Shown one piece after another: positions 44,673 to 49,419 of a stretch of DNA of 64,000 bases (position 1 is its first letter; the number at the start of each line of letters is the position of its first letter). This stretch comes from Merismopedia glauca CCAP 1448/3 (GTDB lineage Bacteria > Cyanobacteriota > Cyanobacteriia > Cyanobacteriales > CCAP-1448). Under the pieces are notes generated by a model that was given only the letters and a program-made list of their open reading frames with translations, was not told where the DNA came from and did no database searches. Made by a program: the position numbers and the translations under genes. The stretch covers positions 1-64,000 of the forward strand of contig NZ_PVWJ01000001.1 of assembly GCF_003003775.1 (NCBI RefSeq), in the 5' to 3' direction.

Positions 44673-44918
44673 ATGAGCATTATCGTTCCTGACGAAGTTT
44701 TAACCGCAACTCGCATGACTGAAGCTGAAATGCGTCAGGAAATTGCTATTATGCTCTTCCAAAAAGAAAAATTAACCTTGGCTCAAGCGAGTCGATTCGC
44801 AGGTATACACCGAGTTGCTTTTCAACACTTATTAGCTAGCCGTCACATTTCAGTGCATTATGGTATAGACGATTTTGAGCAAGATATTAAGAACTTACGG
44901 GAGATGGGCAGGCTGTGA
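44673..44918 (+). CDS. UPF0175 family antitoxin-like protein
   Basis: 81 residues from the ATG at 44673 (frame open to a TTG at 44652). EAEMRQEIAIMLFQKEKLTLAQAS, then FAGIHRVAFQHLLASRHISV and YGIDDFEQDIKNLREMG are the UPF0175 pattern, a helix-turn-helix protein usually paired with a DUF3368 PIN-domain toxin. Its stop overlaps the GTG start of that toxin gene (GTGA), but the toxin is truncated. Confidence 0.85.
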   Translation: MSIIVPDEVLTATRMTEAEMRQEIAIMLFQKEKLTLAQASRFAGIHRVAFQHLLASRHISVHYGIDDFEQDIKNLREMGRL

Positions 44919-45040
44919 TTGTTGTCAGCGACACGTCACCTATCAATAATCTAGCGGCGATCGACCACCTTCACCTTTTACAGCAACTTTTCGGCACAGT
45001 TCTGATTCCTGAAGCTGTTTATCGAGAACTAACTGACTAA
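44915..45040 (+). pseudogene. Truncated DUF3368 PIN-domain toxin
   Basis: GTG at 44915 overlaps the UPF0175 stop. The frame gives IVVSDTSPINNLAAIDHLHL, then FGTVLIPEAVYREL, then a TAA at 45038-45040: 41 residues against roughly 150-160 for the family. The first catalytic Asp (VSDTSP) is present but the later acidic residues are lost. Downstream DNA gives no recognisable continuation and begins the xisH-like segment, so a deletion or rearrangement is likely. Confidence 0.8.
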
Positions 45041-45168
45041 GACAGTACCAGCCGCCGTGCCATTACTCTTTTTTTACCCAATAATCTCTTGACGCGATAA
45101 ACGCGATCGCTCTGTCTAATTACTAAAAGTGCTGTAATCCCTCAGCTAATAATCTTAAATTGCCAACA

Positions 45169-45312
45169 ATGCCAGCCAAAGATCTATTTCACAATGCAGT
45201 CAGATGTGGACTAGGAAAAGAAGGTTGGCGGATTACCAATCTTTCAGCAAGCTTTGATTCAGAAAGTCGTGGCAAGACAGCAAGTTAAATTAATAATTTA
45301 TGACAGCGATCG
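45169..45312 (+). pseudogene. xisH pseudogene with internal deletion
   Basis: From the ATG at 45169 the sequence is nearly identical to the intact xisH at 46238 for about 70 bases (MPAKDLFHNAVRCGL), then jumps at about 45239 to sequence matching 46556 onward (TCTTTCA, CAAGCTTT, CAGCAAGTTAAATTAAT). About 247 bases are missing and the frame is broken. About 20 bases upstream of the ATG also match the intact copy. It is a partial direct duplicate. Confidence 0.88.
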
Positions 45313-45338
45313 CTTCCCACAATTTGGTAAAGTATCTT

Positions 45339-45716
45339 TTACAATGTAGAAGCTGGAGTCTCACTTTTGATAGCTTCTGAAGCAAGTCTGAGTTTTAGCT
45401 TTTCTGTTGCTGGTTTCTGCTGTTGCCAAAACTCTTCCAACAAATCAAAGAAACTTGTAAAAGCGCGATCTTCATCCGTGCTAAAAAGTAATATTATCTT
45501 AGCCCAAGAAGCTGAAGTTTTAACTTGAAATTTTTCTTGTAACCAAGGCTGAAACTTTTGAAACTCTTGTTCTTGCTCGCTAATAGGAAGTTGCAATTCT
45601 TGCAATGAATATTGATAACCACACAAAAACATGAACAAGTTACTAATCGAAGGATATCCTATATATAGTCCTGGTTTCTCTTGAATTTTTTTCAGCAGAT
45701 CGTACAGTGGTAACAT
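45339..45716 (-). CDS. Candidate immunity protein for the adjacent papain-fold toxin
   Basis: 125 residues: LLKKIQEKPGLYIGYPSISN, LFMFLCGYQYSLQELQ, WLQEKFQVKTSASWAKIILL, DRAFTSFFDLLEEFWQQ. The 'KxPGLYIG' start, short helical layout and acidic patches resemble small immunity proteins of polymorphic-toxin systems; I do not recognise a precise family. It lies 17 bases downstream of the papain-fold toxin gene on the same strand, the usual toxin-then-immunity order. It could instead be an unrelated hypothetical. Confidence 0.6.
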   Translation of the reverse strand: MLPLYDLLKKIQEKPGLYIGYPSISNLFMFLCGYQYSLQELQLPISEQEQEFQKFQPWLQEKFQVKTSASWAKIILLFSTDEDRAFTSFFDLLEEFWQQQKPATEKLKLRLASEAIKSETPASTL

Positions 45717-45733
45717 TTATATTACTCCTATTT

Positions 45734-46099
45734 TTAGATAAATTCAAGTTTTTCTATTTCTTCAATATTAAACCTACCACTTGGACAAGTGAAGTCATTA
45801 ATCCAATCTTTTCTAGATAAACCTGTAGCAGATAAATTATCAAAAACTTTCCCACAAACTTCAACTCCATAATGAGTTCCGTTTTGAGTAATTGAGTTTT
45901 TACTACCATCCCATCTCTCACTCAAAATGAAGTTGCCGCGACCTATTATTGTCAGCTTTAAATGAGTGTAGTTAATTCTATTTTGCCTTAACCATATTTT
46001 AACTGCTTCAGCACACTCAGCACATTGAAATATTCCAAACCCTGAAACTATTTTGGTTACTTGTTTGTAAATCTCTTCGTTAGACTTTTGGTCAGCCAT
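45734..46099 (-). CDS. Papain-fold toxin domain protein (Tox-PL-2 type)
   Basis: 121 residues, entirely one domain. IFQCAECAEAVKIWLRQN places candidate nucleophiles Cys26/Cys29 at a helix start; ITQNGTHYGVEVCGKVFDNL supplies His76 and Asp87; GLSRKDWINDFTCPSGRFNIEEIE is the conserved tail. This matches the papain-fold toxin 2 family of polymorphic toxins, expected to cleave a peptide or amide bond in a target protein. There is no signal peptide or secretion domain, so it is either a lone intracellular toxin-antitoxin-like gene or a displaced toxin tip. Confidence 0.78.
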   Translation of the reverse strand: MADQKSNEEIYKQVTKIVSGFGIFQCAECAEAVKIWLRQNRINYTHLKLTIIGRGNFILSERWDGSKNSITQNGTHYGVEVCGKVFDNLSATGLSRKDWINDFTCPSGRFNIEEIEKLEFI

Positions 46100-46237
46100 A
46101 CCATTGATAATATAATAAATTGCTCTTAATTAAGCTACTATGGCTCCCGCGATCGCTCTGCCAAATTCCCAAAAGTGCTATAATTTCTCTATCTTCGTAA
46201 TATACTAGCGTAAGCTAATAATCTTAAATTGCCAACA

Positions 46238-46654
46238 ATGCCAGCCAAAGATCTATTTCACAATGCAGTCAGATGTGGACTAGAAAAAGAAGGTTGGCGG
46301 ATTACCAACGATCCACTTCACTTGCGGGTTGGTAAAATTGATATGTATGTAGATTTAGGTGCAGAAAAAGTTTTAGCTGCCGAGAAGGGAAATCGGAAAA
46401 TTGCGGTTGAAATCAAAAGCTTTTTGAGAACTTCAACTATCACAGAATTTTATCTAGCTTTAGGACAATTTATTCCTTATCAAATAGCGCTAGAAGAGTT
46501 GGAACCAGATAGAGTCTTATATTTAGCAATTCCTGAAGATGTTTACGAACTTTTCTTTCAACAAGCTTTTATTCAAAAAGTTGTGACAAGACAGCAAGTT
46601 AAATTAATAGTTTATAACAGTGATCGCCAGGAGATTAGACAATGGATAAATTAG
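46238..46654 (+). CDS. xisH: XisH, fdxN element excision controlling factor family
   Basis: 138 residues from the ATG at 46238. MPAKDLFHNAVRCGLEKEGW, LRVGKIDMYVDLGAEKVLAAEK, KIAVEIKSFLRTSTITEFYLALGQF and DRVLYLAIPEDVYELFF are the XisH pattern; the Asp, Glu and VEIKSF motif resemble a PD-(D/E)xK nuclease fold. It overlaps xisI by 13 bases. XisH and XisI were named for fdxN-element excision in heterocysts, but homologues are dispersed in many cyanobacteria with unclear roles. Confidence 0.93.
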   Translation: MPAKDLFHNAVRCGLEKEGWRITNDPLHLRVGKIDMYVDLGAEKVLAAEKGNRKIAVEIKSFLRTSTITEFYLALGQFIPYQIALEELEPDRVLYLAIPEDVYELFFQQAFIQKVVTRQQVKLIVYNSDRQEIRQWIN

Positions 46655-46977
46655 CTTTTTATCGCCAATGCGTGGTAGATTTATTGACTAAATATGCCAG
46701 TTACAATTCTTCTGATTCAGGTGTAGAGACTCAGCTAATCTTTGACCGAGAACGGGATCGTTATCTACTAGCTTATGCTGGTTGGGAAAAGAATTTGAGA
46801 GTTTATGGTGTTGCCATTCATATAGATATCAAAAATGGTAAAGTATGGCTTCAGCATAATGGAACTGAAGGTGAAATTGGCGAAGAATTAGCAGAGATGG
46901 GGATACCCTATGAAGATATAGTAGTGGGTTTCCACTCTCCTTCTAAGCGTCAGTTTACTGCTTATGCAGTAGGTTAA
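46642..46977 (+). CDS. xisI: XisI, fdxN element excision controlling factor family
   Basis: 111 residues: MDKLAFYRQCVVDLLTKYAS, ETQLIFDRERDRYLLAYAGW, RVYGVAIHIDIKNGKVWLQH and GIPYEDIVVGFHSPSKRQFT, the full XisI pattern. It overlaps xisH, so the two are translated together and probably form a complex. Length is normal. Confidence 0.93.
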   Translation: MDKLAFYRQCVVDLLTKYASYNSSDSGVETQLIFDRERDRYLLAYAGWEKNLRVYGVAIHIDIKNGKVWLQHNGTEGEIGEELAEMGIPYEDIVVGFHSPSKRQFTAYAVG

Positions 46978-47208: not shown

Positions 47209-47658
47209 TCATAACTGCCATTTGTGGTTTGGATTTTGCAAAGCCTGTCTAAATTGCTCTGAATTGGGCAATTGCTTGAAAGGGCTATGTTTTACAATTT
47301 CAGTTATACTAGATAAAATCGCTGCAAGTTGCTCAGTGTTATTTGACTCAATTGCCTGATCGGCAATCTTGAATAAATACTCAAAGTTATTCTTTCTCTC
47401 ATCAAAAGATTTATCGAGATGATGTATTGATACCTCTCGTTGAGCCTTGATTGCAGCTAATAGAACTTCTTTCTTTATAGCAAGTTCGCTCTGGTAGCGA
47501 TCTTGTAATTGCTTCAATTCCAAATAATCAAACAGTCTAGACATGAATGCAGATAAATTTGGGGGCATAACGTCGTTGAATGATTCCGCTGATTCTTTAT
47601 TACTCTGGATTACGTCAACTTTTGGTGCGGCTTCTTCAAATGATTTTTCATTAAACAT
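47209..47658 (-). CDS. Unrecognised helical cytosolic protein, second gene of a two-gene operon
   Basis: 149 residues, no membrane segment. A disordered acidic N-terminus is followed by long amphipathic helices (MPPNLSAFMSRLFDYLEL, ELAIKKEVLLAAIKAQREVS, IADQAIESNNTEQLAAIL). I recognise no family. Its ATG starts two bases after the stop of the membrane-protein gene, so the two are certainly co-translated. It may be a cytosolic partner or regulator of that protein. Confidence 0.55.
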   Translation of the reverse strand: MFNEKSFEEAAPKVDVIQSNKESAESFNDVMPPNLSAFMSRLFDYLELKQLQDRYQSELAIKKEVLLAAIKAQREVSIHHLDKSFDERKNNFEYLFKIADQAIESNNTEQLAAILSSITEIVKHSPFKQLPNSEQFRQALQNPNHKWQL

Positions 47659-47660
47659 AT

Positions 47661-48650
47661 TTAGATACCTATTGAGAGAGATCTGTATTTATTACTCTTA
47701 ATTGCTATACTACTGAGTCCCCAGTTTCCTTCAATTTCGATTGGAGAAGATAGTATATCAGTAATCGCTCGGCTAATAAGATATAAGGAATGCAATTGTT
47801 GGTAATCGTGTTCTGGCTCAAATGATTGTATTTTAGCTTTCAACTCGTAATAGAGTTTATTGTGTAACCTCTCCAAATCCCCAAGAACTTCCTTAATCTG
47901 CCTGATATACTTCACTTGCTGATGGCATAGATCACTTGCGGTTTGACATTCCTCAATAAAAAATCTTTTTTCAAGCTCATATGATCGTGCTTTATTCAAA
48001 GCATTATGCCCTTTGTAGGCTAAAGCTAGTCCCCCAGCCAAAATGCCTACTCCTGCTGCTACTACCAAAACAGAAGTGGTTGTAAGAGCAATCCCAACCC
48101 CCATATGGCTAGGCAACGCCCCTACAACACTCATATGGAAAGCTGCTGTACTACCGCAACCAACGACAGGACAAGCGGTAGCAGCTTGCAAAGTAACACT
48201 ACTAGCACTAAGGACTAGAAAGTGACCTGATATAGTTGAGAGAACTCCTGCTGTTGCAAACATTCCTGAGATAGCAGACCATTTTACTGCCTCAACAGTA
48301 ATTTCTCCTTTATCACTGATAGAGCCAAATTCTGGTTTAGGCAAGATATCTATAGCGTCTAGGGCTTCTAGTTTTCTTACATCAACTTCCTGTCCTATTT
48401 GTTTGAACAACTTGACTGTGTTTCCAACTACTTCTTTATAAATCTTTTCGGAATAATCTGAAAGATTAGAAAGTTCAAAATTAAGAGAAGATTTAGAATG
48501 ATCCAGGATTAACTGGGCTTTATCAGCATCATGGTCAACACATTCTTTAAGTTTCTCTGCCTTATGACTATTGTGTACTCCTACTCCACCAGCCGTTACC
48601 CCAATACCCCCAGTCCCTGCTAAAATCCACCATACAAGCGGTGCTACCAT
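47661..48650 (-). CDS. Unrecognised membrane protein with Gly-rich helices, first gene of a two-gene operon
   Basis: 329 residues; GGAGG seven bases before the ATG. An N-terminal Gly-rich hydrophobic stretch (WWILAGTGGIGVTAGGVGV) is followed by a coiled-coil region (about 28-125), a long Ala/Gly/Ser-rich membrane region (about 125-215, SGMFATAGVLSTISGHFLVL through VVAAGVGILAGGLALAY) and a C-terminal coiled coil (about 225-290). Similar Gly-rich helix/coiled-coil proteins are scattered in bacterial accessory regions without known function. Pore-forming or membrane-stress roles are speculation. Confidence 0.55.
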   Translation of the reverse strand: MVAPLVWWILAGTGGIGVTAGGVGVHNSHKAEKLKECVDHDADKAQLILDHSKSSLNFELSNLSDYSEKIYKEVVGNTVKLFKQIGQEVDVRKLEALDAIDILPKPEFGSISDKGEITVEAVKWSAISGMFATAGVLSTISGHFLVLSASSVTLQAATACPVVGCGSTAAFHMSVVGALPSHMGVGIALTTTSVLVVAAGVGILAGGLALAYKGHNALNKARSYELEKRFFIEECQTASDLCHQQVKYIRQIKEVLGDLERLHNKLYYELKAKIQSFEPEHDYQQLHSLYLISRAITDILSSPIEIEGNWGLSSIAIKSNKYRSLSIGI

Positions 48651-48748: not shown

Positions 48749-48994
48749 CTACGGTAATGGTAAGCGATCGTATGGTTCTGGCTCGACATCGGGCACCTTT
48801 GCCAAAATAGCATCATAGGCTGTTCGACTTCCTTGCTGTGCCAAATCTTCTAAATACTTCTCAGTTGTCAATGCGGCAATTTTCTCTGCTACCGCCGTTG
48901 CAATAAACCGATCTATTGAGATTCCGTCCTGTTGAGCCAGTATTTGTAAGCTTTTGTAGAGTGAGTTAGGAAGGCGAAAGCTTACATCAGTCAT
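48749..48994 (-). CDS. Ribbon-helix-helix antitoxin
   Basis: 81 residues: TDVSFRLPNSLYKSLQILAQ, GISIDRFIATAVAEKIAALT, then a Pro/Glu-rich tail. The N-terminal strand and two helices are the ribbon-helix-helix DNA-binding fold. Its ATG overlaps the stop of the PIN-domain gene by four bases, so it is the second gene of the pair. It likely neutralises the toxin with its tail and represses the promoter. Confidence 0.85.
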   Translation of the reverse strand: MTDVSFRLPNSLYKSLQILAQQDGISIDRFIATAVAEKIAALTTEKYLEDLAQQGSRTAYDAILAKVPDVEPEPYDRLPLP

Positions 48995-49419
48995 GATAAA
49001 ACTCCAATTATTCTCAGAAGTTCAACTGGACCTATCGCAGTCAGCCCAAATCGTTCAAGCCCTACAAAATCGCGGGTATTGTATGTTACTATGCTATCGC
49101 ATCTAGCTTTAACTGCTAACTCTAGCACCATATCGTCCTTGGGATCGGGTAAATAAGGTCGCCATAAAAAGAAAATCTGGTGACGAGTGGCTACAGAGCA
49201 GTGAAACGCCACTAAGTTTTCAATATCTTCGGCTGTAATGTAGAGATTTGGTAGTTCGCGGTGCAAAACCTCTTGGTACTCTAGCACTAGTGGAATGGAT
49301 AGATGAATGTCAAATTTTCCTGTTCCTACTAACGACAATATCTGAAAAGAACTACCGCGCCTCGATCGCAATCCAGCAACAAGAACATTTGTGTCTAGAA
49401 CAATTTGTGGAATTGACAT
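48991..49419 (-). CDS. PIN-domain toxin (PIN_3 type)
   Basis: 142 residues: IVLDTNVLVAGLRSRRGSSF contains the first catalytic Asp, LVLEYQEVLHRE the Glu, and LPDPKDDMVLELAVKARCDSIVTYNTRDF the later acidic cluster. This is the PIN ribonuclease family annotated as a putative toxin component; it would cut RNA. The order is toxin first, antitoxin second, the reverse of most type II systems. Confidence 0.88.
   Translation of the reverse strand: MSIPQIVLDTNVLVAGLRSRRGSSFQILSLVGTGKFDIHLSIPLVLEYQEVLHRELPNLYITAEDIENLVAFHCSVATRHQIFFLWRPYLPDPKDDMVLELAVKARCDSIVTYNTRDFVGLERFGLTAIGPVELLRIIGVLS

Follow-up and report, generated by a model that had tools for sequence, protein, structure and literature searches.

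Tox-PL-2 (papain fold toxin 2) was described by Zhang et al. (2012; PMC3482391) as the partner of Imm73, an all-alpha immunity protein that sometimes occurs in tandem and was listed for cyanobacteria. The same survey did not find the Tox-PL2 and Tox-PL3 peptidases outside polymorphic toxin systems (PMC3482391). A 2023 classification treats PF15643, the Tox-PL-2 family, among the transglutaminase-type toxins (PMC10318531), and deamidation or transglutamination would therefore be at least as likely a chemistry as proteolysis. The locus considered here belongs to Merismopedia glauca CCAP 1448/3 and lies in the window, the whole 64,000-nucleotide stretch of DNA that was analyzed. It comprises two small genes on the minus strand, flanked by two copies of xisH:

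45102..45313, plus strand: degenerate xisH with a 245-nt internal deletion and no xisI (repeat search and alignment)
45339..45716, minus strand: probable cognate immunity or antitoxin gene, 125 aa, all-alpha, Imm73-like (downstream of the toxin in relatives; AlphaFold model)
45717..45733, minus strand: 17-nt spacer from toxin stop to partner start, with a Shine-Dalgarno-like AGGAG (sequence read directly)
45734..46099, minus strand: stand-alone Tox-PL-2 (papain fold toxin 2), 121 aa (PF15643; triad Cys26/His76/Asp87; AlphaFold2 model)
46238..46654, plus strand: intact xisH (PF08814, E 5.9e-57)
46642..46977, plus strand: intact xisI, overlapping the end of xisH (PF08869, E 1.2e-42)

Their sequences make it almost certain that these minus-strand genes encode a toxin and the matching immunity or antitoxin protein, as a stand-alone variant of the known polymorphic toxin pair. 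The original prediction of a stand-alone cassette, made up of a papain-fold toxin with a Cys-His-Asp triad and a cognate gene, is supported by the PF15643 match, the triad, and the conserved partner.

The Stand-Alone Tox-PL-2 Protein

The 121-aa open reading frame matches the Pfam family Tox-PL-2 (PF15643) with E 1.2e-24 and 86.9 bits, against a curated cut-off of 25. The catalytic signature of the family (C, NxxH, DN) is present as C26, N73-G-T-H76, and D87-N88. Cys26, Cys29, His76, and Asp87, all proposed earlier, are each found in the sequence, and an alignment of homologs gathered without a motif filter shows Cys26, His76, and Asp87 to be invariant in 25 of 25. Within a set of 106 homologs a single full-length toxin carries Tyr at position 26 (L096), the remaining exceptions being fragments; invariance of His76 in the larger toxin set is partly imposed, because that set was found largely via the motif around this residue. 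The L096 homolog (L096:6001-6357), in which Tyr replaces the catalytic Cys, has kept its partner and is possibly an inactivated toxin.

As to the proposed papain-like fold, the AlphaFold2 model of the toxin is confident (pLDDT 91) and of alpha+beta type, with Cys26 at the start of a helix and both His76 and Asp87 on consecutive strands, but the nearest solved folds, those of protein-glutaminase (2ksv), NTAQ1, and SseI, are all weak matches (best E only 0.05, TM 0.49) with 10-17% identity. Sequence searches of the PDB with the toxin and partner profiles returned no relatives of either protein.

The 121-aa reading frame contains no delivery module, and in the window the toxin domain does not form the C-terminus of a delivered protein, an arrangement found only in relatives from Burkholderia ubonensis and the cyanobacterial genome G065. 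On the B. ubonensis plasmid pRF23 the C-terminus of an RHS protein is a Tox-PL-2 domain, and a gene of the partner family (E 3e-19) follows 3 nt downstream. In G065 a protein of 312 aa has an N-terminal part resembling RHS (profile match below cut-off), ends in Tox-PL-2, and precedes two tandem partners. In G447 the toxin lies behind a repeat-like N-terminal stretch and precedes a tandem-fused partner. A search of plasmids for the toxin gave one RHS protein as its sole match, and the toxin was not found in the phages or viral contigs searched.

The Partner Gene

The 17-nt spacer with its AGGAG motif implies that toxin and partner form a single operon, toxin first. The 125-aa partner has no family match in Pfam, NCBIfam, or PADLOC, and profile searches revealed no recognizable DNA-binding domain. 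Its AlphaFold model (pLDDT 87) consists of eight helices and zero strands, and a fold search with this model gave no match. These properties fit the description of Imm73, in that the protein is all-alpha, lies directly downstream of Tox-PL-2, and is tandem in some relatives. Because the partner family also follows the Tox-PL-2 tips of RHS toxins, the partner is very probably an Imm73-type immunity protein, a name assigned by context and description. A family without a profile in the libraries searched thus gains an assignable role.

Conservation of the Pair

An immunity gene just behind the toxin had been anticipated, and the order of the two genes is strongly conserved. An alignment query of genome contigs defined a set of 80 named loci, whereas a single-protein query gave no match. 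In each of these 80 loci the partner is encoded behind the toxin and in the same direction; in L096, where the start is ambiguous, the two overlap. Searches of 149 related genomes produced 73 toxin matches in 39 of them, and in 67 of the 73 the partner is directly downstream. In the remaining six, the toxin match is a fragment or sits at the end of a contig. No full-length toxin without a partner was found in the loci and relatives examined. Co-occurrence across cyanobacteria, suggested earlier as a check, extends beyond adjacency to the sequences themselves: the distance matrices of toxin and partner correlate with r = 0.83 over 71 pairs, compared with at most 0.10 in 1000 permutations. This correlation includes shared host ancestry and therefore shows joint inheritance, not contact, of the two proteins.

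Tox-PL-2 is present in 45 of 386 cyanobacterial genomes. None of the 81 matches lies in an open frame longer than 217 aa, so that a gene standing alone is the usual state in the phylum. That the stand-alone form is the commoner one in cyanobacteria, almost always as a complete small gene with a partner, contrasts with the 2012 survey (PMC3482391). These sequence comparisons show toxin and partner to be a real two-gene unit, old and common among cyanobacteria.

Loss from the unit is one-sided, with the toxin lost rather than the partner. A simple search gave about fifty partner matches without a toxin. A sensitive search at such lone partners recovered a toxin for a few and none at most others, with toxin remnants beside the partner at L192, L196, L197, L199, L200, and L231. 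At L142 an apparent frameshift in the partner lies behind an intact toxin; this locus comes from a MAG of approximately 4x coverage and the frameshift may be an assembly error. Fused tandem copies of the partner occur at L018, L128, L129, L223, and L247.

An antitoxin or immunity gene would be expected to occur alone in some places, or behind a deleted toxin. Orphan immunity would give rise to such loci as well, the partner then protecting the cell against Tox-PL-2 tips injected by the RHS-type systems of neighbors, with the stand-alone toxin a displaced tip, spare or disappearing. RHS proteins do show the same toxin-immunity order, and many partners have unrelated genes for neighbors and no toxin, or lie beside toxins bearing deletions. 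This explanation is nonetheless unlikely, as the stand-alone toxin retains its own start and also its triad, which is intact in almost all copies long enough to include it (L096 being the exception). The toxin is inherited with the partner, unlike a discarded tip, and this genome yielded one toxin and one partner, with no delivery module seen with them.

The presence of housekeeping amidases such as NTAQ1 among the nearest folds raises a further alternative, in which the first gene would encode an ordinary papain-like protein-modifying enzyme, either deamidase or peptidase, and the second a chaperone or accessory subunit for it. A non-toxin role of this kind is highly improbable given the patchy distribution among the 386 genomes, the use of the domain as an RHS tip, and the partners that outlive their toxins, all of which are typical of toxin-immunity rather than housekeeping genes. 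The reading preferred here is that of a toxin with its immunity or antitoxin gene.

xisH Copies around the Pair

Two xisH copies in the same orientation, one intact (46238-46654) and one internally deleted (45144-45313, with upstream homology from 45102), flank the pair as first described. Only the 121-aa and 125-aa reading frames, both on the minus strand and separated by the 17-nt gap, lie between them, which likewise agrees with the earlier account. The internal deletion is real, but its length is 245 rather than 247 nt; the missing segment corresponds to 46309-46553. The degenerate copy aligns with the intact one in three blocks, 45102-45143 (83% over 42 nt), 45144-45239 (99% over 96 nt), and 45240-45313 (89% over 74 nt). 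The 96-nt block contains one mismatch (E about 1e-42), a similarity far beyond chance.

Entry of the cassette had been proposed as the cause of the xisH duplication. Insertion could have made both direct copies in the manner of a target-site duplication, and the repeats do bracket the cassette exactly, with HIP1 octamers (GCGATCGC) placed precisely at both inner edges (45306-45313 and 46149-46156). Several observations make this origin very unlikely. The copies are unequally diverged, with mismatches at 1/96 positions in the core versus 8/74 and 7/42 in the flanking blocks (Fisher p 0.011 and 0.001). Flanking copies of equal age would not be expected to differ so unevenly (1%, 11%, and 17%), and the pattern suggests an older duplication with later homogenization of the core, not simultaneous copies made by insertion. 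Fragments of xisHI exist without the pair, and pairs elsewhere mostly lack xisH. The octamer occurs 78 times in 64 kb, or once per 820 bp, and its position at the repeat edges is possibly due to chance because it is so frequent here. HIP1-mediated insertion of the cassette was considered as well, and HIP1 is too frequent for a conclusion.

The wider distribution of xisH agrees with its being a multicopy family that decays independently of the pair. This genome has four intact and five partial xisH copies, and the family is present in 50 of 60 relatives, at 1-28 copies each. On contig C2, joined pieces of xisH and xisI (G000:C2:70118-70253, L191) match the intact copy at 93% and 88% identity with approximately 385 nt missing, and no toxin pair is found there. 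This fragment is further evidence of xisHI copies decaying by internal deletion in this genome. The stretch separating the degenerate xisH from the cassette was searched for a remnant of xisI and gave an 11-base match of doubtful significance at 45325-45335 (P ~0.01 for the spacer, 0.07 for a longer stretch).

Proximity to xisH or xisI (within about 6 kb, surroundings of ~12 kb) is seen for just 6 of the 80 other pairs, where chance would predict about one xisH. The enrichment is therefore mild, of the kind found among genes located in common accessory regions. In two near-identical Hormoscilla loci (L133 and L134) xisHI lies directly upstream of a Tox-PL-2 pair, and in L030 xisI is placed likewise, as if xisHI and Tox-PL-2 pairs shared accessory regions in distant cyanobacteria. 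An empty site with a single xisH, sought as a check on the insertion, was not found among related genomes, no relative being close enough to show one; the best xisHI DNA match elsewhere is 68% identical. The cassette has a GC content of 33.6% versus 41.0% for the window, and this AT-richness is consistent with acquisition. The doubled xisH beside the pair looks like unrelated gene decay, a matter separate from the cassette.

Other Genes in the Window

Additional genes, some of apparent toxin-antitoxin character, lie nearby. At 44673-45040 (plus strand) a UPF0175 gene (PF03683, E 2.5e-23) precedes a PIN-like fragment of 41 aa that is cut short by an early stop. This is an apparent second toxin-antitoxin pair, antitoxin intact and toxin broken, which adjoins the broken xisH. 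A similar UPF0175-like gene with a short PIN-like reading frame is found beside the lone partner at L232. Two adjacent genes occupy 47209-48650 (minus strand), the longer with a weak match to SLATT-like membrane effectors (E 0.0023, below cut-off). At 48749-49419 (minus strand) a small gene with a weak CopG-type match, also below cut-off, overlaps an upstream 142-aa gene that is PIN-domain-like by eye; these are a possible further toxin-antitoxin pair.

Proposed Function

The pair probably constitutes a stand-alone cytoplasmic toxin-immunity pair of the Tox-PL-2/Imm73 type, working like a toxin-antitoxin module. The toxin would be a small papain-like enzyme of the transglutaminase or deamidase type, with a Cys-His-Asp triad, predicted to be toxic by deamidating or cleaving a cellular protein as its target. 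The all-alpha partner, produced from the same message, probably binds the toxin and holds it inactive, and loss of the partner alone would on this proposal be harmful. The module may derive from the tips of RHS polymorphic toxins or have its genes in common with them. The xisHI genes are a separate matter, a multicopy, decaying gene pair in this genome, and the cassette is flanked by one intact and one broken copy of xisH.

A broader proposal is advanced tentatively and is somewhat doubtful as it stands, namely that stand-alone Tox-PL-2/Imm73 is a distinct and widespread cyanobacterial type of toxin-antitoxin system with a deamidase-like intracellular toxin, and that RHS toxins and chromosomal toxin-antitoxin loci exchange the cassette. 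The pair is a good subject for testing the interconversion of delivered toxins and intracellular toxin-antitoxin modules, and possibly also for discovering a toxin of the deamidase type that an antitoxin restrains.

Comparison with Known Systems

Most type II antitoxins have a DNA-binding domain and are encoded first, DNA binding and autoregulation being common though not universal. The present locus resembles type II modules in having two small adjacent cytoplasmic genes and in the finding of no full-length toxin without a partner, and differs in that the toxin comes first and the partner has no recognized DNA-binding domain, a point against reading the partner as a type II-like antitoxin. 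Papain-like deamidases of the protein-glutaminase (2ksv), NTAQ1, and SseI type share the Cys-His-Asp residues and are the nearest solved folds, although as weak matches (E 0.05 or worse) of low identity. RHS toxins with a Tox-PL-2 tip (pRF23 and G065) have a homologous toxin domain and a homologous downstream partner, arranged in the same order, whereas the RHS delivery part is missing from the window. Compared with the Tox-PL-2/Imm73 pair of Zhang et al. (2012; PF15643), this toxin and most cyanobacterial copies are complete genes of 115-130 aa rather than the tip of a secreted protein, while the toxin family, the catalytic signature, the all-alpha downstream partner, and the tandem copies in some relatives are all held in common.
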